37,721 bases of DNA, taken from positions 1 to 37,721 of the forward strand of contig ONFC01000003.1 in the NCBI GenBank assembly GCA_900317035.1, read 5' to 3'. Position 1 is the first letter of the stretch. The number at the start of each line of letters is the position of its first letter. Made by a program: the position numbers and the translations under genes. Below, one piece after another: positions 15,179-26,472 of the stretch. This DNA is from an uncultured Eubacteriales bacterium (lineage in GTDB: Bacteria > Bacillota > Clostridia > Saccharofermentanales > Saccharofermentanaceae). The notes under the pieces are model-generated. The model worked only from the letters and a program-made list of their open reading frames with translations, did not search any database and had not been told where the DNA came from.

Positions 15179-16966
15179 TTATGTAGCATTGCGGCGTCTT
15201 CTTGCTTCCTGCATCAGACGCTTGTGTTCTTTTATTGCCTTTCTTCCCTGTCCGATACCTTCAGGCACAGGAGTTTCTTCGATCCCGATATACTTTTCGT
15301 TATGGAAGACTGTGCTCACCACCGGATCAAGATGGAAATAGGAGTCGATCTCCTGATCCGTGATGTCCGGTGCAAACTTGCGTCTTCTCAATGAACCGAA
15401 TCTTCTGCGGTTATACTCTTTCCAGATGATCAGGACAAGAAGCTCGATCAGTACCGCGATAAACAGAATCATGAAGAAGTGCTCGGTCTGGCGGATCTTA
15501 TTGAGATCGTAGAACAGGAATTCCTTCACCGGACGGTTCATCTTGTCGCAGATGATTCCGTAGATCATGTAACAGAAATACACCAGCATATAGATCCATG
15601 CGATCAGCGTCAGGACAACTCCGATAACCTTTTTCCAGGTCTTCTGTTTATTCTCATACTCGATATGTGAATCCCCGTTATGGGCAGGCGCGTGCTCCTC
15701 CAGCTGTATGAGCTGGGGATTTGTCTTCCTATCCTCTTCTTTTTGCGTCTGGGTAATACCGCGGTCCGGACTTTTCCAGGTCGCCAGTTTCTTTCTCGGA
15801 AGGATCGTCTTAAACAGTGCACCCAGTGTAATGAAAACATTGATATACCAGTATAGGATCGGATACCATATTACGCTCCAAGTGCTCTTCAGGATATCTT
15901 TGTCATATTTGGATTCCAGGATCATGGCAACGACAAATTGGAATAGACAGACAAACGACAGAAACTGGCTCTTCCAGATCAGATCGGTATATAGATGCTC
16001 ACCGCGGATCTCCGAGATAACAAGAAGGACCGTCAGGAACAGCCAGCAGACAGACCAGAAGAAGGAAGCAACCTGCTCCAAATAGATCGGTGTCATTCTT
16101 CTTCTTCTCCAACTCTTGAAAATATCCCAGTGCCGGAATACTACTTCCAGGCCGCCTTCCGCCCAGCGCTTACGCTGCCGCCAGAGTCCCTTTATCGTCT
16201 CCGGAACGAGCATCCAGCAGAGGGCTCTCGGTTCATACCTTACATCCCAGAAATTCTTTTCCAGTTTCCATGTGACGGCAATGTCCTCTGTCATCATGTC
16301 GCGGTCCCAGAAACCGCAGTCCAGGAGCGCTCTTTTTCTATATGCGACACATACGCCGGATACTGTCATTACCTTTCCGAGAACGCGCTGGGTACGCTTG
16401 ATCAGGCTGATAATGCTGGCGTATTCACAAAGCTGGATCTTTCCGAGAAGCGAGCCTCTGTTCCGCACGCGGGGATTACCGGTTACTGCGCCAACGCGCT
16501 CACCGTTATTCTTATTCACAAAATGGGATACCATATATCGAAGAGCATCTTTGTCGAGATATGAGTCGGCATCTACACCCACCAGGATCTCTCCTTTGGA
16601 GGCGATCAGGCCGAGATAGAGCGCATTGGCTTTGCCGCAGTTTTTCTTCAGATCGACGACTCGGACACAAGGATACTTCTCACAGAGCGCCTTCATGACC
16701 TCAGATGTGTTATCGGAGCTTCCGTCGTTGATCAGGATGATCTCATACTCAGGATAGTTCAGCTTCGTCATCTGTTCGACGACCGGAATCAGAACAGAGC
16801 TTTCATTATGTGCAGGCATAAGAATAGACACGAAAGGCGTTCTTTCGAGTTTCAGCGTCTTTTTTCTCTCATTGGAATAATAGAAGATCAGGGAACCAAG
16901 TACCCACATCATCGCCATTATGGCAGGATACCAAAAAACAAATTCCACTATCCAGTTTATGTTCAT
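15179..16966 (-). CDS. PgaC-type glycosyltransferase fused to a PgaD-like domain
   Basis: A 595-residue membrane polysaccharide synthase. Residues 1-390 are a processive GT2 enzyme of the PgaC/IcaA/BcsA type: an N-terminal membrane segment, DGSS (81-84), DADS (132-135), TED (226-228), RQRKRW (263-268) and then membrane helices. A polar linker (about 392-445) leads to a second part (446-562) with two membrane segments, LIIWKEYNRRRF (512-523) and a short soluble tail. That second part matches the layout of PgaD, whose second helix ends LIVWALYNKLRF in E. coli. PgaC and PgaD are normally separate proteins that together make poly-beta-1,6-GlcNAc and bind cyclic di-GMP. The polymer made here is inferred. 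The ribosome binding site is weak (AGAGGT at long spacing). Confidence 0.8.
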   Translation of the reverse strand: MNINWIVEFVFWYPAIMAMMWVLGSLIFYYSNERKKTLKLERTPFVSILMPAHNESSVLIPVVEQMTKLNYPEYEIILINDGSSDNTSEVMKALCEKYPCVRVVDLKKNCGKANALYLGLIASKGEILVGVDADSYLDKDALRYMVSHFVNKNNGERVGAVTGNPRVRNRGSLLGKIQLCEYASIISLIKRTQRVLGKVMTVSGVCVAYRKRALLDCGFWDRDMMTEDIAVTWKLEKNFWDVRYEPRALCWMLVPETIKGLWRQRKRWAEGGLEVVFRHWDIFKSWRRRRMTPIYLEQVASFFWSVCWLFLTVLLVISEIRGEHLYTDLIWKSQFLSFVCLFQFVVAMILESKYDKDILKSTWSVIWYPILYWYINVFITLGALFKTILPRKKLATWKSPDRGITQTQKEEDRKTNPQLIQLEEHAPAHNGDSHIEYENKQKTWKKVIGVVLTLIAWIYMLVYFCYMIYGIICDKMNRPVKEFLFYDLNKIRQTEHFFMILFIAVLIELLVLIIWKEYNRRRFGSLRRRKFAPDITDQEIDSYFHLDPVVSTVFHNEKYIGIEETPVPEGIGQGRKAIKEHKRLMQEARRRRNAT

Positions 16967-19594: not shown

Positions 19595-21424
19595 ATGAAG
19601 ATATGCGCTTTCATCGGTGATATGTACCGTGATTATTCATCTGAACTCATTCTGGCCATACAGAAATGTGCGATCGAGCGCGGCCATAGTGTAGATGTTT
19701 TCGGTAACTGTTCTGTCCCGAGTGAAAACCCTCTTCATGCAGAAGGTCTGAAAAAGATCCTTTCTCTTCCGAATTATTCTGATTACGACGGTATTATCGT
19801 TTGTTCGGATACACTCCATCATGCCGGACTGAATTATGAGCTTCTCGAGAACCTCACCTCCGCTTCGGATCTTCCTCCGGTCGTAAGCGTACGTGCCGAA
19901 GAATCCGGGTTTTATTCGGTGGTTCCGGACAACCGGCAGATCATGTATGAAATCTCGCAATATGTCATCGGCAAAATCAAAAGCGACGATATCGGATTCG
20001 TTACAGGAAGAGATGATCTCCGTGACTCTCTTGAGCGTCTGGCCGGTTTCGAAGACGCCATGGAAGAAGCAGGCTATACGGTCAGAAAAGACATGATCTT
20101 CCATGGTAATTACTGGACAAATCAGGGACCGGAGACTGCAGATTTCTTCATTAAGGAGGACGGAACACTTCCTCAGGCCATCATCTGTTCAAATGACTAT
20201 ATGGCGATCGCGCTTACAGATGAGCTTATAAAGCGCGGATACTCCGTGCCGAGAGACACCCTGATCACCGGTGTAGATAATCTGGATGCATCGAGCGCGC
20301 ATGTCCCGTCCATTACTACTTCCGATATTCCGGAGACAGTTCTCGGAAAGACAGCGATCGATTGTCTGGAAAGGATCAATGCCGGAGAGGATGTAGATAT
20401 CTGCACGACTGTTCCTGGAAGAATGATCTACCGTGAAAGCACCGGTGATGATATGTCTGCCCGGGATATTGATGAGATGCACCGCCGTCTGGATGCGATC
20501 CAGAGAAACTATTACGATAAGACTCGCGCGTTTGTCCTTCTCAGTTCCGATTATGAGGATGTTCTTTCCTACGATACACTAGTGGATTACACTCTTGGGA
20601 ATCTGGACAGCTACGGTCTATTCAGCAGGATCCTCTTATGTGAGTACTGCGAAAATGACAGGAGACTGACAGGTTTCTGCGAGAACGGAAAAAAGACCCG
20701 TACGAATATCAGTTTCCCGAGTAGCCGCCTTTTCCCCGAGGAATTCGATACATCTGAGCCCAGACTTACGATATTCCTGCCGATCTTCTATAAGAGTGAG
20801 GTTTACGGGTATGCTGCGTTCAGGCTCCAATCGGACGTCAAATATATCCTCGATGAAAAGATGGAATTCACCATGGTACTGCTCGGGCAGACGTTGAACC
20901 GTCTAAGGCTATACGATAAGCTCTTTGAGGTAAACAACATCAAGGATCTGTATATCCGGGATGCGCTGACCGGACTTCTGAACCGCCGCGGTTTCGAGCA
21001 GGAGATCGCAAAATTCTTCACGAACGGTAAAGAAGCGGATTTTCCGATCGCTGTCGCCAGTATCGACATGGATGGGCTGAAAGAGATTAACGACAATCTC
21101 GGACATGCCGCAGGAGATGAGGCACTCAAAGGAATCGCCCACTGTCTTGAATCGGTTCTTAAGGAAGGCGAGATCGCTGCACGAATGGGCGGCGATGAAT
21201 TTGAAGCAGTCCTCGTACTGAACAGTTCCGCACGTATCGGTCAGTTTATCCGCAGTTTCCGAAGTGCCATTAAAAAGGCAAATGCCGAAAACAATGCGGA
21301 ATTCACCTTGAGCGCCAGTATCGGCACCTGTGAGGCCACAAACTGGGAGACGCTGATGGAATGCATGAATAAAGCCGACAAGATCATGTACATCGAAAAG
21401 AAGACGAAGAAGCACCGCACCTGA
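19595..21424 (+). CDS. LacI-type ligand sensor fused to a GGDEF diguanylate cyclase
   Basis: A 609-residue protein. Residues 1-285 form a LacI/GalR-type periplasmic-binding fold (KICAFIGDM, YDGIIVCSD, AIICSNDYMAIAL, ITGVDNLDASS, a PSITTSDIP hinge). There is no DNA-binding helix-turn-helix, signal peptide or membrane segment, so it should sense a ligand in the cytoplasm. A middle region (about 300-430) may be GAF-like. The GGDEF domain starts at DALTGLLNRRGFE (456) and has IDMDGLKEIND and GGDEF at 532-536, so it is probably an active diguanylate cyclase. The inhibitory RxxD site is replaced by KEGE. The ligand is unknown; a sugar is likely from the fold. A 71-base gap separates it from the next gene on the same strand. 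Confidence 0.88.
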   Translation: MKICAFIGDMYRDYSSELILAIQKCAIERGHSVDVFGNCSVPSENPLHAEGLKKILSLPNYSDYDGIIVCSDTLHHAGLNYELLENLTSASDLPPVVSVRAEESGFYSVVPDNRQIMYEISQYVIGKIKSDDIGFVTGRDDLRDSLERLAGFEDAMEEAGYTVRKDMIFHGNYWTNQGPETADFFIKEDGTLPQAIICSNDYMAIALTDELIKRGYSVPRDTLITGVDNLDASSAHVPSITTSDIPETVLGKTAIDCLERINAGEDVDICTTVPGRMIYRESTGDDMSARDIDEMHRRLDAIQRNYYDKTRAFVLLSSDYEDVLSYDTLVDYTLGNLDSYGLFSRILLCEYCENDRRLTGFCENGKKTRTNISFPSSRLFPEEFDTSEPRLTIFLPIFYKSEVYGYAAFRLQSDVKYILDEKMEFTMVLLGQTLNRLRLYDKLFEVNNIKDLYIRDALTGLLNRRGFEQEIAKFFTNGKEADFPIAVASIDMDGLKEINDNLGHAAGDEALKGIAHCLESVLKEGEIAARMGGDEFEAVLVLNSSARIGQFIRSFRSAIKKANAENNAEFTLSASIGTCEATNWETLMECMNKADKIMYIEKKTKKHRT

Positions 21425-21495: not shown

Positions 21496-24378
21496 ATGGA
21501 GGAGAAAAAGCGATCATTTCTTTGGGATAATGCGAAAGGTCTTCTGATTTTTCTGGTCGTTTTCGGTCATTTCCTGTCTGGCAACACGAATCATTCCGGA
21601 GCTCTTTTAGTACTCACCGTCATCTATTCGTTTCATATGCCGGCGTTTGCTTTTATCTCCGGATTTTTCACAAGAGAAAAGTATGACTTCCGAAAACTTC
21701 TTACGGCCTATGTGATATTTAACGGGCTTTTCCTTTTTTACAGATTGTATGAGGATGGCTCTTTCACGCTGATCCAGCCCTACTATGTCTGCTGGTACCT
21801 GATCGCGCTTATTGTCTGGCGGTTTCTGACACCGCGCATCGCAAAGTTCCGCTTCACTCTTCCGGTCCTTCTGCTGGTTTCCCTGTTATGTGGTTTTTCA
21901 AGTGAAATAACAAACAACTTTGCCCTTGCCAGGATCCTTTCTTTCTGGCCGTTTTTCATGAGCGGATATCTTCTTCAGAAAAAGGATATCAGCAAACTCC
22001 GGAAGAAGTATTCTCCGCTCTTTGGCCTGGCTTTCGGGCTGTTTTTTCTGGTGTCCATTATTCAGGGCTCCACACAATTCCACATCACTTCTGCCGATTA
22101 CACCATGATGCCCTATCCGGAACCTGCAAGTGTCTTTCTTCGTATAATCCTCTTCGCCTGTGCGGGATTTGCGATCCTCTCGATCCTTTTCAGCATGCCG
22201 GATAGTAAGATCCTGTTTATTTCGTCATGGGGCAGAAACTCCATGTCTATCTTTCTTCTCCACCGTTTCTTCACACTACTTGCCGGAAAGCTCTACCCCT
22301 CGAATATGCGGAGCATTGAGATCCTCGGTATCTCTTTTGTACTCTCCCTAGCTTTATGCTTTGTGCTTGGCAATGACCGGGTCGCATCTCTTCTGAACCG
22401 GCTTCTGTCTCCGTCAAAAAAGAGCGAGTCTCTCTGCAGAAATGCCATCGTGTCCCTTGTCGCATGTTCTATCGCTATCGTTGTGGTCGTCGATTCCGCG
22501 ATGCCGTTCCTTACATCTTCCCCGGAGCAGAAATCCGAGGATACGAAGATCAAGACAGACCCTATCTATCAGGTGATGTCGGACGGGCAGGAACAGGAGT
22601 TTGACCAGGCATTTAAGATCGTTTTTTCAGGAGATCTGATTCTTCTGGAAGATCAGGTCAAGCGCGGATATAGCGAGGAGAACGGCACTTATGATTTCCA
22701 TGACTGCTTCGAATATACGAAAGACGAGATCTCCTCGGCCGATCTTGCGATCGGTGTCCTGGAAGGCCCGCTTGTCGGAGATCCGTCCCTCTACTCAATC
22801 GGAAATTATGATGATGGAAAGATGCTTCGCATCGGTTTCCCGGATGCCTGGGCAGAGGCCATCAAAGATGCAGGATTCGATCTGGTCACGACCTCCAATA
22901 ATCACCTTCTTGATCGTGGAGAGGAATCTGCCTATCGAACCATCGATGTCCTGGAGGATCTCGGTCTTCCTTCCACAGGATCCTATAAAAGCCGGGAAGA
23001 CAAGGAGCGCCGCCATATCCACATCATCGAGCAGGATGGCCTTCGCATCGCAGTTCTTTCCTATACTTTCGGAACGAATTACTATAAGACATCGGAACTG
23101 ATGTCCGGAGATCTTTCCTACATTACGTCTTTCATCGTCGATCCTTCCGACCCGGATTATGAGAAAGTCAGAGCATCCGTGAAAGAAGATTTTGCTGCGG
23201 CAAAAGCACTTTCGCCGGACCTCATCCTCGTCCTCCCGCACATGGGCGAACAGTTCCTCGATGCACCGGATGAATTCCAGAAGACCTGGCACGATAACTT
23301 CGTAGAATTCGGCGCGGACATCATCCTCGGCGACCACACGCACTCCGTGCAGCCGTCCTTCCTCGAGGAAGCCGGCGGGAAGACCGTTTTTACCGCTTAC
23401 TGTCCCGGCAACTATGCGAATGTCTATCGGGAACATAACGGTGACGCATCCGCGCTGATCGAGGTCTATATCGACCGTGAGACCAAGCGCCCCATCGGCG
23501 GCGGAATTATCCCGATGTGGACCTCCTGCCCGATGAACGGGAATTACCGTGCCGTTCCGATCTACGATATCCTCACGGATCCTTCTCTTTCTTCAGCCTA
23601 TACCACCACGGACCTTGACCGTGTAAAAGAAGTACACGAACATATCACGGGAGTCATGCTGGATACACCTCTTTCCATGGACATGATCGAGCCTGTCTAT
23701 CACTTTGACGGAGATGGCTTCCTGCGTAAACAGTGCGATCCTCTAACGATATCTTCCGAACTGGAGGAAAGTGCTTTTCTAAAAGAGATCAGATCAAGGG
23801 ACTCCGTATGCTTCCTAGGTGACAGTATCACCTTCGGAACAAAGAACGGCGGTATCCCGTGGTACGAACCACTTCTTCCCGCTATCCCGGGAAAAGTTTC
23901 CAATACTTCCTACGGAGGGTGGACATCGAAAGATCTTCTCGAGCATAAAGAGGAGATCGGAAAAGCCTCTCTCTATGTCATCGCGATCGGAACCAATGAC
24001 GTAAGATATAACGATGCGAATAAGGGCGCGATCGATCCTGACGGATATATCCGTAACCTTCAGGAACTAAAGAAAACGATCCGCACTCTCGCGCCGGGTG
24101 CAAAGATCATCTTCATCGCACCATGGATCTCGACGGACGGAGATAAAGCCAGCCCGCTTACGATCGAAGAAGTGACGGAAAGACGCCTGTCTTACAGCAA
24201 GGCTCTTTCGGAATTCTGCAGCTCGGAAGGGGACATGTACATCGATCCGAATCCGTATATCGAAGAGAATCTTCTTCATACGACGCAGAGCTATTATCTT
24301 CTCGACTGGATCCATCCGAACCGCCGCCATGGCATCGCGATGTACTGTGAAGCGGTCCTTGCTTCAAGCATCTCCTGA
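21496..24378 (+). CDS. three-domain envelope protein: acyltransferase 3 / CapA / SGNH hydrolase
   Basis: A 960-residue protein. Residues 5-300 form a multi-pass acyltransferase-3 domain (WDNAKGLLIFLVVFGH, with the catalytic-type His, and SFHMPAFAFISG). A further membrane segment at about 313-335 would place the rest outside. Residues 373-640 form a CapA/PGA_cap-type metallophosphoesterase fold: SGDL (378-381), SNNHLLDRG (Asn 468, His 470), LPHMGEQ and GDHTH (612-616). Residues 769-955 form an SGNH/GDSL hydrolase: GDSI with Ser 777, GTND (832-835) and DWIH with Asp 937 and His 940. Acyltransferase-SGNH fusions are known for O-acetylation of surface glycans. The inserted CapA domain is unusual. 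A GGAGG site precedes the ATG. It ends two bases from the convergent MerR-type gene. Confidence 0.88.
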   Translation: MEEKKRSFLWDNAKGLLIFLVVFGHFLSGNTNHSGALLVLTVIYSFHMPAFAFISGFFTREKYDFRKLLTAYVIFNGLFLFYRLYEDGSFTLIQPYYVCWYLIALIVWRFLTPRIAKFRFTLPVLLLVSLLCGFSSEITNNFALARILSFWPFFMSGYLLQKKDISKLRKKYSPLFGLAFGLFFLVSIIQGSTQFHITSADYTMMPYPEPASVFLRIILFACAGFAILSILFSMPDSKILFISSWGRNSMSIFLLHRFFTLLAGKLYPSNMRSIEILGISFVLSLALCFVLGNDRVASLLNRLLSPSKKSESLCRNAIVSLVACSIAIVVVVDSAMPFLTSSPEQKSEDTKIKTDPIYQVMSDGQEQEFDQAFKIVFSGDLILLEDQVKRGYSEENGTYDFHDCFEYTKDEISSADLAIGVLEGPLVGDPSLYSIGNYDDGKMLRIGFPDAWAEAIKDAGFDLVTTSNNHLLDRGEESAYRTIDVLEDLGLPSTGSYKSREDKERRHIHIIEQDGLRIAVLSYTFGTNYYKTSELMSGDLSYITSFIVDPSDPDYEKVRASVKEDFAAAKALSPDLILVLPHMGEQFLDAPDEFQKTWHDNFVEFGADIILGDHTHSVQPSFLEEAGGKTVFTAYCPGNYANVYREHNGDASALIEVYIDRETKRPIGGGIIPMWTSCPMNGNYRAVPIYDILTDPSLSSAYTTTDLDRVKEVHEHITGVMLDTPLSMDMIEPVYHFDGDGFLRKQCDPLTISSELEESAFLKEIRSRDSVCFLGDSITFGTKNGGIPWYEPLLPAIPGKVSNTSYGGWTSKDLLEHKEEIGKASLYVIAIGTNDVRYNDANKGAIDPDGYIRNLQELKKTIRTLAPGAKIIFIAPWISTDGDKASPLTIEEVTERRLSYSKALSEFCSSEGDMYIDPNPYIEENLLHTTQSYYLLDWIHPNRRHGIAMYCEAVLASSIS

Positions 24379-24380
24379 CG

Positions 24381-25550
24381 TCAGCGGGAGCAGTGCAGGA
24401 AATGGTAATCTATGGTTAGGGTCAGTTCGCCCTCTTCCTCGATTTTTCTTTCAAAATACGACTTGATCTTACTGCCGTTTTTCAGGAAGAATTTCTCCTG
24501 CCCCTCAAAGGTCTCCTTCATGCGAAGGAGCATATCGTCCGCGCTATCAAAACGGAGTGAATTCTGAAGGGGCTGGATCTCGATTTTCCCGAAATACTTA
24601 CTGACCATCGATCGGAAATCATCCCTCGCTTTTTTCTGTTCAGAGATGGATCCTTCGATGAACGGCGCATCGATCCCGGCCTCTTTCATGGCCTCTTTGA
24701 AGTACAGATTCCAGGGGCTGACATTCGGCCCGTTTATGGAGAAGATACCGTCTTCTGCCAGGACCTGGCTTGCCCTGGCAATGAGAGTTTCCGGGTCTTT
24801 CAATTCATAAAAGAGATAGTGCGCTACGATGCGGCTGTATGTTTTTTCTTTCGCGATCTTCTTCCATGTGGAATCCTTCTCCAGATCCGCGAAAGTGAGA
24901 TCGATCTTCACACCGGCTGGCAGTTCTTTCTCGTTCTCGGAAAGATACTTCTCAAAGTCGTCCGCCCAGCTCCCGTGAACATCGTAAGCATAGATGCTGG
25001 TTCCCTCCGGAATGTCTTTCCAGTTATTTCTCCAGAGCTTGGAAAAACCGCAACCGAGATCGAGTACTTTCTCTTCTTTTTGGAGATGAAGGGAACGAAA
25101 GATCGTGACATACCAGTCCATCCCCGGAAGTGTATGCTGTACCGCCATCATGTGGTGCCTGTCGGCACTCTGGTCGATGGTCACGCTCTGCACGATCGAA
25201 GCTACATCGTCCCAGTCGGGAGTATCGTTGCTCTGCACCAGGGTCCTCTTGATGGCATCGATCACCATCTCGATACGGTAGCGCTGCTCTTCCATCTCTT
25301 TCAGCTGGATCTCAAGTGCCTCACGGATATCCTTCGCATCGCCGGAATCAAGATTATCACGGATCTCTTCGAGTGAGAATCCGATCTGCTTCAGCGCCAC
25401 GATCTTCTCCAGCACCTGAAGAGACGCCTCATCATAAAGGCGGTAGTTACCTTCGGAATATCCGGCAGGTTTTAGTAGTCCTTTTTCATCATAAAGGCGC
25501 ACCGCTTTCTGAGAGACTCCTGCTCTCTTCGCGATCTCGCCGGATGTCAT
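24381..25550 (-). CDS. MerR-family regulator fused to a SAM methyltransferase
   Basis: A 389-residue protein. Residues 1-70 are a MerR winged helix (SGEIAKRAGVSQKAVRLYDE, GNYRLYDE), followed by a coiled-coil dimerisation helix (about 75-105). Residues 145-330 are a class I methyltransferase with VLDLGCGFSKLW (162-173), YAYDVHG as the acidic motif, and LTFADLEKD. The start at 25550 is chosen because the HTH begins there and a GGGAAA sequence lies between the trxB stop and this ATG; an in-frame ATG at 25571 would overlap trxB by 14 bases and lacks a site. It is the last gene of the nrdD-trxB run. MerR-methyltransferase fusions exist in Clostridia but the substrate is not known to me. Confidence 0.82.
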   Translation of the reverse strand: MTSGEIAKRAGVSQKAVRLYDEKGLLKPAGYSEGNYRLYDEASLQVLEKIVALKQIGFSLEEIRDNLDSGDAKDIREALEIQLKEMEEQRYRIEMVIDAIKRTLVQSNDTPDWDDVASIVQSVTIDQSADRHHMMAVQHTLPGMDWYVTIFRSLHLQKEEKVLDLGCGFSKLWRNNWKDIPEGTSIYAYDVHGSWADDFEKYLSENEKELPAGVKIDLTFADLEKDSTWKKIAKEKTYSRIVAHYLFYELKDPETLIARASQVLAEDGIFSINGPNVSPWNLYFKEAMKEAGIDAPFIEGSISEQKKARDDFRSMVSKYFGKIEIQPLQNSLRFDSADDMLLRMKETFEGQEKFFLKNGSKIKSYFERKIEEEGELTLTIDYHFLHCSR

Positions 25551-25557
25551 TTTCCCG

Positions 25558-26472
25558 TTAGTTGAGTTCATTGATATAATCGCATGCACGGATCGCCGCA
25601 TATGCACCGTCGGAGCATGCTGTCGTTACCTGACGGAGCGTCTTGCTGCAGCAGTCTCCTGCGACGAAGAGACCCGGGGTCTTCGTATTCACGATATTCT
25701 CCGGAACGAAGTATCCTCTGCTGTCCAGATCCGCATATCCGGCAAAAGCACTGTTATCCGGAATCAGTCCTACCGCAAGGAAGACACCGTCACACTTCGC
25801 GGTCTTCTGCTCACCGTTTTCTTCGTAGATCACACCTGTAAGGGTTCCATCTTCGGAAGTCTCATATGCGAGGACCTTCGTGCTGACATGCGCTTCGACC
25901 TTCTCACTCGGAAGTACCTGATCCTGCAGCTTCTTATCCGCAGTAAAAATCGGCATATCCTGAAGGATGATGAGCTTGCTGACGATACCGACGAGCATCG
26001 CGGACTCGACGAATGCGGAGTTACCGCCGCCGACCATGACGACTGTCTTGTCTCTGTAGAATTCTCCGTCACAGACAGCACAGAAGCTGATAGAAGATCC
26101 GATCAGATTCTCCTCACCGGGAAGTCCCAGTGTTCTATGTGTGGTACCTGTCGCGAGGATAACTGTCTTTCCTTCAAATGTATTGCCGTCTTCCGTGAAT
26201 ACCGAGAATCCTTCGGATGTCTTCTCCACACCGGTAACATTTTCCATCGCGACTTCAGCGCCCTGGCCCATAGCCTGTTCGAGGAGCTTGTCGCCGAACT
26301 CATCGCCGCTGATGGACTCAAAGCCCGGGATGTTCTCGACCTTCGGGGAATTGACGATCTGTCCGCCGAATACCGACTTCTCGATCACCAGTACTGTCTT
26401 AAGATTTCTTCTTCCGTAAATAGCGGCGGTGAGACCCGCAGGTCCCCCGCCGACTATGATGATATCGTACAT
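25558..26472 (-). CDS. trxB: thioredoxin-disulfide reductase
   Basis: A 304-residue flavoprotein with the bacterial TrxB layout: FAD-binding IIIVGGGPAGLTAA (4-17), the redox pair CAVC (Cys 131, Cys 134), an NADPH-binding GGGNSAFVE segment near 149, and the C-terminal FAD motif GLFVAGDCCSKTLRQ. In place of the usual GDVR/GDCR the motif reads GDCCSKTLRQ. It reduces a thioredoxin-like partner with NADPH. The start is the ATG with GGAG eight bases upstream, four bases after the nrdD stop. That tight coupling makes the redoxin domain fused to NrdD its likely partner. Confidence 0.93.
   Translation of the reverse strand: MYDIIIVGGGPAGLTAAIYGRRNLKTVLVIEKSVFGGQIVNSPKVENIPGFESISGDEFGDKLLEQAMGQGAEVAMENVTGVEKTSEGFSVFTEDGNTFEGKTVILATGTTHRTLGLPGEENLIGSSISFCAVCDGEFYRDKTVVMVGGGNSAFVESAMLVGIVSKLIILQDMPIFTADKKLQDQVLPSEKVEAHVSTKVLAYETSEDGTLTGVIYEENGEQKTAKCDGVFLAVGLIPDNSAFAGYADLDSRGYFVPENIVNTKTPGLFVAGDCCSKTLRQVTTACSDGAYAAIRACDYINELN

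Follow-up and report, generated by a model that had tools for sequence, protein, structure and literature searches.

Architecture of the locus

The window, the whole stretch of 37,721 nucleotides that was analysed (contig ONFC01000003.1), carries at 21496..24378 on the forward strand a single open reading frame of 960 codons, which begins with ATG and is stop-free in the ORF listing. Its 960-aa product matched three Pfam families, all above the curated cut-offs: Acyl_transf_3 (PF01757, AT3; aa 11–291, E = 3.1e-16, 59.8 bits, cut-off 31), PGA_cap (PF09587, CapA; aa 374–642, 4.1e-47, 161 bits, cut-off 27) and Lipase_GDSL_2 (SGNH; aa 773–943, 7e-17, 62.9 bits, cut-off 32.9). AlphaFold predicted all three folds, in agreement with an earlier sequence-only reading that had proposed three real domains in one continuous frame. 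As read from the sequence, the domain order from the N- to the C-terminus is AT3, CapA, SGNH and the active-site residues are intact. The residues named in the earlier reading are all present (W10-D11-N12..K14 and F23-G24-H25; S378-G379-D380-L381, S467-N468-N469-H470 and G612-D613-H614-T615-H616; S777, D937 and H940).

The fusion gene, whose extent is defined by the ORF, the Pfam matches and full-length homologues, starts 71 bp downstream of a gene (19595..21424, forward strand; Pfam) that joins a LacI-type periplasmic-binding domain (PBP-like) to a GGDEF domain, with no DNA-binding match. This PBP-GGDEF gene was present in 23 of 23 genus genomes, with or without the fusion next to it, and was rejected as a specific partner. 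Directly downstream, on the reverse strand (24381-25607), lies a gene for a 408-aa protein that combines a MerR-type regulator with a methyltransferase-like domain. A fused PgaC-PgaD of 595 aa, the synthase of poly-N-acetylglucosamine (PNAG), is encoded on the reverse strand at 15179-16966 (TIGR03937, 488 bits; TIGR03940, 42 bits; both above cut-off). Beyond synteny within the genus no conserved operon partner was found and neighbours vary by lineage, which is consistent with a self-contained enzyme.

The AT3 domain (aa 8–305; 21517..22410, forward strand) has ten transmembrane (TM) helices. Modelled alone (AlphaFold2; pLDDT 94.4, pTM 0.91), it has a predicted 10-TM TmAT fold that matched HGSNAT (Z = 16.9, rmsd 4.8 over 279 residues) and GWT1 (Z = 11.9); the next, unrelated, structure reached only Z = 3.5. 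HGSNAT and GWT1 belong, as does AT3, to the TmAT superfamily (PMC12423673). Sequence searches against solved structures gave no matches for AT3 or for the whole protein, and the best NCBIfam match of AT3, to NolL, was weak (1.7e-5, far below cut-off). TM1 contains D11-N12-A13-K14-x10-H25, an instance of the D-x-x-R/K-x10-H motif described for AT3 enzymes (PMC7448272, PMC12423673), and D-x-x-K-x10-H was found in 27 of 27 rows of an alignment of homologues, which bears out the acylation theme of the earlier reading. An eleventh helix (TM11, aa 309–339; 22420..22512, forward strand) was predicted in both the full-chain and the AT3 models, with a hydrophobic peak at 318–336, and is followed by a disordered linker. 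The full-chain model (AlphaFold; pLDDT 88.8) had confidence below 50 only at residues 1–4 and 339–355, the latter being the stretch of lowest confidence, after TM11, and its domain-domain contacts are uncertain at a pTM of 0.63. Coming after the ten AT3 helices, TM11 would be expected to leave CapA and SGNH on the outside of the cell; both the folds and this outer placement, which had also been anticipated earlier, are model predictions. OafB likewise has a TM11 that places its C-terminal part outside (PMC9833829).

The CapA domain (22597..23718, forward strand; Pfam, structural match, conservation), assigned to the metal-dependent, calcineurin-like class, matched MslH with Z = 29.6 and rmsd 3.4 over 314 residues at 15–16% identity; as this match covers aa 368–741, the domain is longer than the Pfam boundary. 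Its sites are D380, E423, N469, H470, D473, H582, H614 and H616. N469, H470, D473, H582 and H616 align with MslH N87, H88, D91, H259 and H295, and D380 pairs with MslH D11 by motif position. Compared with the MslH metal ligands (E44, N87, H259 and H261), N469 and H582 match, E423 corresponds by motif only, and the position of H261 is taken by G584. Judged by these alignments, CapA keeps most of the residues that serve metal binding and catalysis in MslH-like enzymes of the calcineurin fold. The cut-off of the NCBIfam MslH equivalog (NF038314) was not reached (19.8 bits versus 700).

The SGNH/GDSL hydrolase domain (aa 752–960; 23749..24375, forward strand; Pfam, GDSL structural matches, conservation) matched Axe2, acetylxylan esterases and other GDSL enzymes with Z = 19 (aa 763–960). 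Its structural neighbours are mostly esterases and less often transferases, and no OatA or OafA SGNH structure was among the best 50 matches listed. The Ser, Gly, Asn and His blocks and the Asp are complete (S777, G808, N834, D937 and H940), with S777, D937 and H940 as the putative triad.

Occurrence, conservation and loss

End-to-end matches to the fusion were found in 28 genomes of the host family, spread over four genera, at 38–85% identity (search of 198 relatives; ~115 family genomes sampled); one of these copies ends at a contig edge and one contains a stop. A scan with one genome for each species also gave full-length homologues, down to ~35% identity, in records of Clostridiales, Oscillospiraceae, Saccharofermentans and Ruminococcus flavefaciens, most of them rumen or gut MAGs. 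A chimera, frameshift or assembly artefact is ruled out by the ~28 full-length homologues in the family. Because full-length homologues exist and key residues are almost invariant, the fusion is not a product of chance. Only four of 398 genomes sampled throughout the phylum had the fusion, two of the copies being damaged (two stops in G533; AT3 portion broken in G206). PGA_cap proteins are common (269 of the same 398), and the best-scoring PGA_cap matches among those listed lie in frames of 324–754 codons. The AT3-CapA-SGNH arrangement is real, conserved and rare, and the earlier impression that it is unusual has held up: no paper describing such a fusion, or naming PGA_cap together with Acyl_transf_3, was found in the open-access literature.

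In the 27-row alignment, D11, N12, K14 and H25 of AT3 were invariant and the catalytic residues of CapA and SGNH were kept in 24–27 of the rows. CapA is the most conserved domain (mean pairwise identity 58% for the CapA core, 47% for SGNH, 40% for AT3). Pairwise identities between domains correlate at 0.87–0.90, and the three domains have therefore diverged together. Three homologues, in which the motif regions are unambiguously aligned by eye, depart from this pattern. L055 has lost D380, E423, N469, H582, D613 and H616 of the CapA site with AT3 and SGNH sites intact; L058 has lost S777, D937 and H940, and L057 has lost G808, N834, D937 and H940, both retaining most of CapA. The AT3 catalytic residues are never degraded. 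The outer activities are separable, since one homologue has lost its CapA site and two others their SGNH site, all with AT3 intact; SGNH looks dead in L057 and L058, as does CapA in L055, and neither appears to be universally needed.

In the AT3 tree, AT3-only proteins of the same type are interspersed with the fusions, and well-supported branches require five or more label changes. Repeated loss of the outer modules is the probable explanation, although gain and loss are not distinguishable on this tree. The SGNH tree places 254-aa TM-anchored SGNH proteins of two genomes (G002 and G013) inside the fusion gene's own clade, and their SGNH-only genes occupy the fusion's slot, flanked by the GGDEF gene and TrxB. 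The same slot holds only a 26-residue match to the SGNH tail in G004 and is empty in G012; therefore the full fusion, SGNH only, a remnant and an empty slot all occur. At loci of sister species (L137, L138, L149, L152, L154 and L143) the slot has a lone TM-anchored SGNH, a 26-residue SGNH remnant or nothing. Broken copies include one with an in-frame stop (L047), one with a frame break between CapA and SGNH (L061) and one with a break in the AT3 frame (L050, 10250-10300) near eight consecutive G residues, compatible with either phase variation or misassembly. Single breaks in MAG copies could be sequencing errors. No partner gene was recognised adjoining the AT3-only relatives. An apparent alanine racemase gene, identified by eye, follows one of them (L064, 11142-12287) and recalls VanT.

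Relation to known acyltransferase and CapA systems

Besides AT3-only proteins, the bacterial AT3 proteins described in the literature consulted are AT3-SGNH and AT3-racemase fusions (PMC9833829, PMC7448272, PMC12423673, PMC9558356). OatA, OafA, OafB and PglI share with the present fusion an N-terminal 10-TM AT3 with D-x-x-R/K-x10-H, a TM11 and an outer C-terminal SGNH with a Ser-His-Asp triad, but they do not have its ~370-aa CapA domain between AT3 and SGNH. AT3-SGNH fused transferases are marked by a GG-F/Y-XGV-D/P/V motif between TM1 and TM2 (PMC7448272). In contrast, this loop motif (GG[FY]xGV[DPV]) was found in 0 of 27 fusion rows, RxxR in TM3, as in the OatA/OafA group, in only 5 of 27, and the SGNH domain, unlike the OatA/OafA type, gave no match to PF19040 (Pfam; own genome at E ≤ 0.1). 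A simple OatA/OafA protein with a CapA insert was rejected on the loop motif and the lack of a PF19040 match. On sequence grounds, the fusion is best regarded as a distinct form of AT3-SGNH protein, outside the OatA/OafA group. In OatA the acyl group is relayed from AT3 to SGNH, an acetyl relay that involves a tyrosine in an AT3 loop (PMC12148441), and OafA requires both its domains (PMC7448272). By comparison with the OatA tyrosine, two tyrosines are candidate acyl carriers, as a lead only: Y101, which lies towards the outer end of TM4 and is conserved in 26 of 27 rows, and Y97 (22 of 27).

Other systems resemble single parts of the protein. IcaC and NolL have the AT3 type of the fusion, but are AT3-only with no outer domain. 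MslH, a lasso peptide C-terminal Trp epimerase, shares with CapA the whole-domain fold, NNHxxD and further His sites; it works as a free-standing enzyme on a lasso-peptide precursor, whereas the CapA domain is membrane-tethered and predicted outside. CapA/PgsA of poly-gamma-glutamate synthesis is, like the fusion, a membrane-tethered protein with a PGA_cap domain predicted outside; the fusion differs in that CapA is joined to an acyltransferase and SGNH. In VanT (PMC12423673, PMC9558356), AT3 is likewise joined to another enzyme class, a serine racemase, and the fusion may also contain a stereochemical enzyme; the VanT racemase, however, is cytoplasmic and unrelated to CapA, and the protein has no SGNH.

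Proposed function and alternatives

We consider it somewhat better than an even bet that the fusion is a self-contained, membrane-bound extracytoplasmic O-acylation machine combined with a metal enzyme that acts on the same acceptor. By analogy with the family, the ten-helix pore of AT3 would bind cytoplasmic acyl-CoA and deliver its acyl group at the outer side of the membrane. Ser777 of SGNH, held outside on TM11 and the flexible linker, would accept the acyl group, and SGNH would transfer it to a hydroxyl of an envelope molecule or remove it again; in another route, the acyl group would pass from AT3 straight to the acceptor. CapA would bind and process the same acceptor, by hydrolysis or epimerisation. 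AT3 may work without SGNH, as it differs in type from the AT3 of the OatA/OafA fusions and AT3-only relatives lie among the fusions. The acceptor class may likeliest be peptidoglycan or a wall glycan; standalone TM-anchored SGNH paralogues adjoin diaminopimelate dehydrogenase genes in L125 and L126, a weak hint at a peptidoglycan acceptor.

If AT3 acylates the acceptor directly, SGNH could instead strip these acyl groups, making the mark reversible, with CapA mainly binding the polymer. The resemblance of SGNH to acetylxylan esterases, an AT3 that looks like the AT3-only class needing no SGNH, and the dispensable catalytic residues of CapA (L055) and SGNH (L057 and L058) are consistent with such editing. 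However, both outer active sites are intact in almost all homologues, and SGNH is a transferase in the known AT3-SGNH fusions; we regard this alternative as unlikely.

A role in surface stereochemistry, with CapA as an MslH-like outer epimerase of an amino-acid residue in the wall or in a peptide, coupled to acyl transfer, is suggested by MslH being by far the best structural match, by the counterparts in CapA of both MslH His/Asp dyads, and by the AT3-racemase precedent of VanT. Among solved structures of the PGA_cap family, though, none nearer than MslH was found, and the match indicates fold rather than reaction; the CapA residues also fit phosphoesterases such as YmdB, the metal ligand H261 aligns with G584, and the VanT racemase works in the cytoplasm. 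The epimerase role is accordingly quite improbable, and we give still less credence to its fullest form, a VanT-like protein at the outer face in which one chain would export the acyl group, epimerise a wall or peptide acceptor through CapA and acylate the same acceptor through SGNH.

The PgaC-PgaD gene, 4.5 kb from the fusion and in the same synteny in L033 and L035, raises the question of PNAG modification, in which an IcaC-like AT3 would act on PNAG and SGNH and CapA would trim it. Both genes occurred together in 12 genomes against 7.4 expected (28 with the fusion, 30 with PgaC, n = 113; Fisher p = 0.046, uncorrected for kinship). In contrast, PgaC (E ≤ 1e-60) was absent from 16 of the 28 fusion genomes and the fusion from 18 of the 30 PgaC genomes, so that PNAG is not a required partner, and PgaC does not adjoin the fusion in more distant homologues. 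We judge this alternative very unlikely. Polyglutamate or capsule assembly, with CapA acting as in poly-gamma-glutamate synthesis on a polymer that the acyltransferase modifies, was hinted at in the earlier reading and is in line with the PGA_cap match, but can hardly be maintained: none of the 113 family genomes gave a CapC (PF14102) match above cut-off, whereas the B. subtilis control did, no capsule operon surrounds the fusion gene, and with PGA_cap so prevalent across the phylum a PGA_cap label is no sign of polyglutamate.

AT3 proteins modify polymers of the wall and capsule and influence sensitivity to lysozyme, phage and antibiotics. The fusion bears on the question of how acyl groups are handed over from AT3 to acceptors, and the homologues with inactivated CapA (L055) or SGNH (L057 and L058) are natural tools for separating the activities. 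MslH is the one CapA-family member whose chemistry we found described in the open-access literature; a CapA tied to an acyltransferase and SGNH gives a testable clue to the substrates of CapA enzymes. The fusion is conserved in gut and rumen Clostridia, where it probably decorates a cell-surface molecule.
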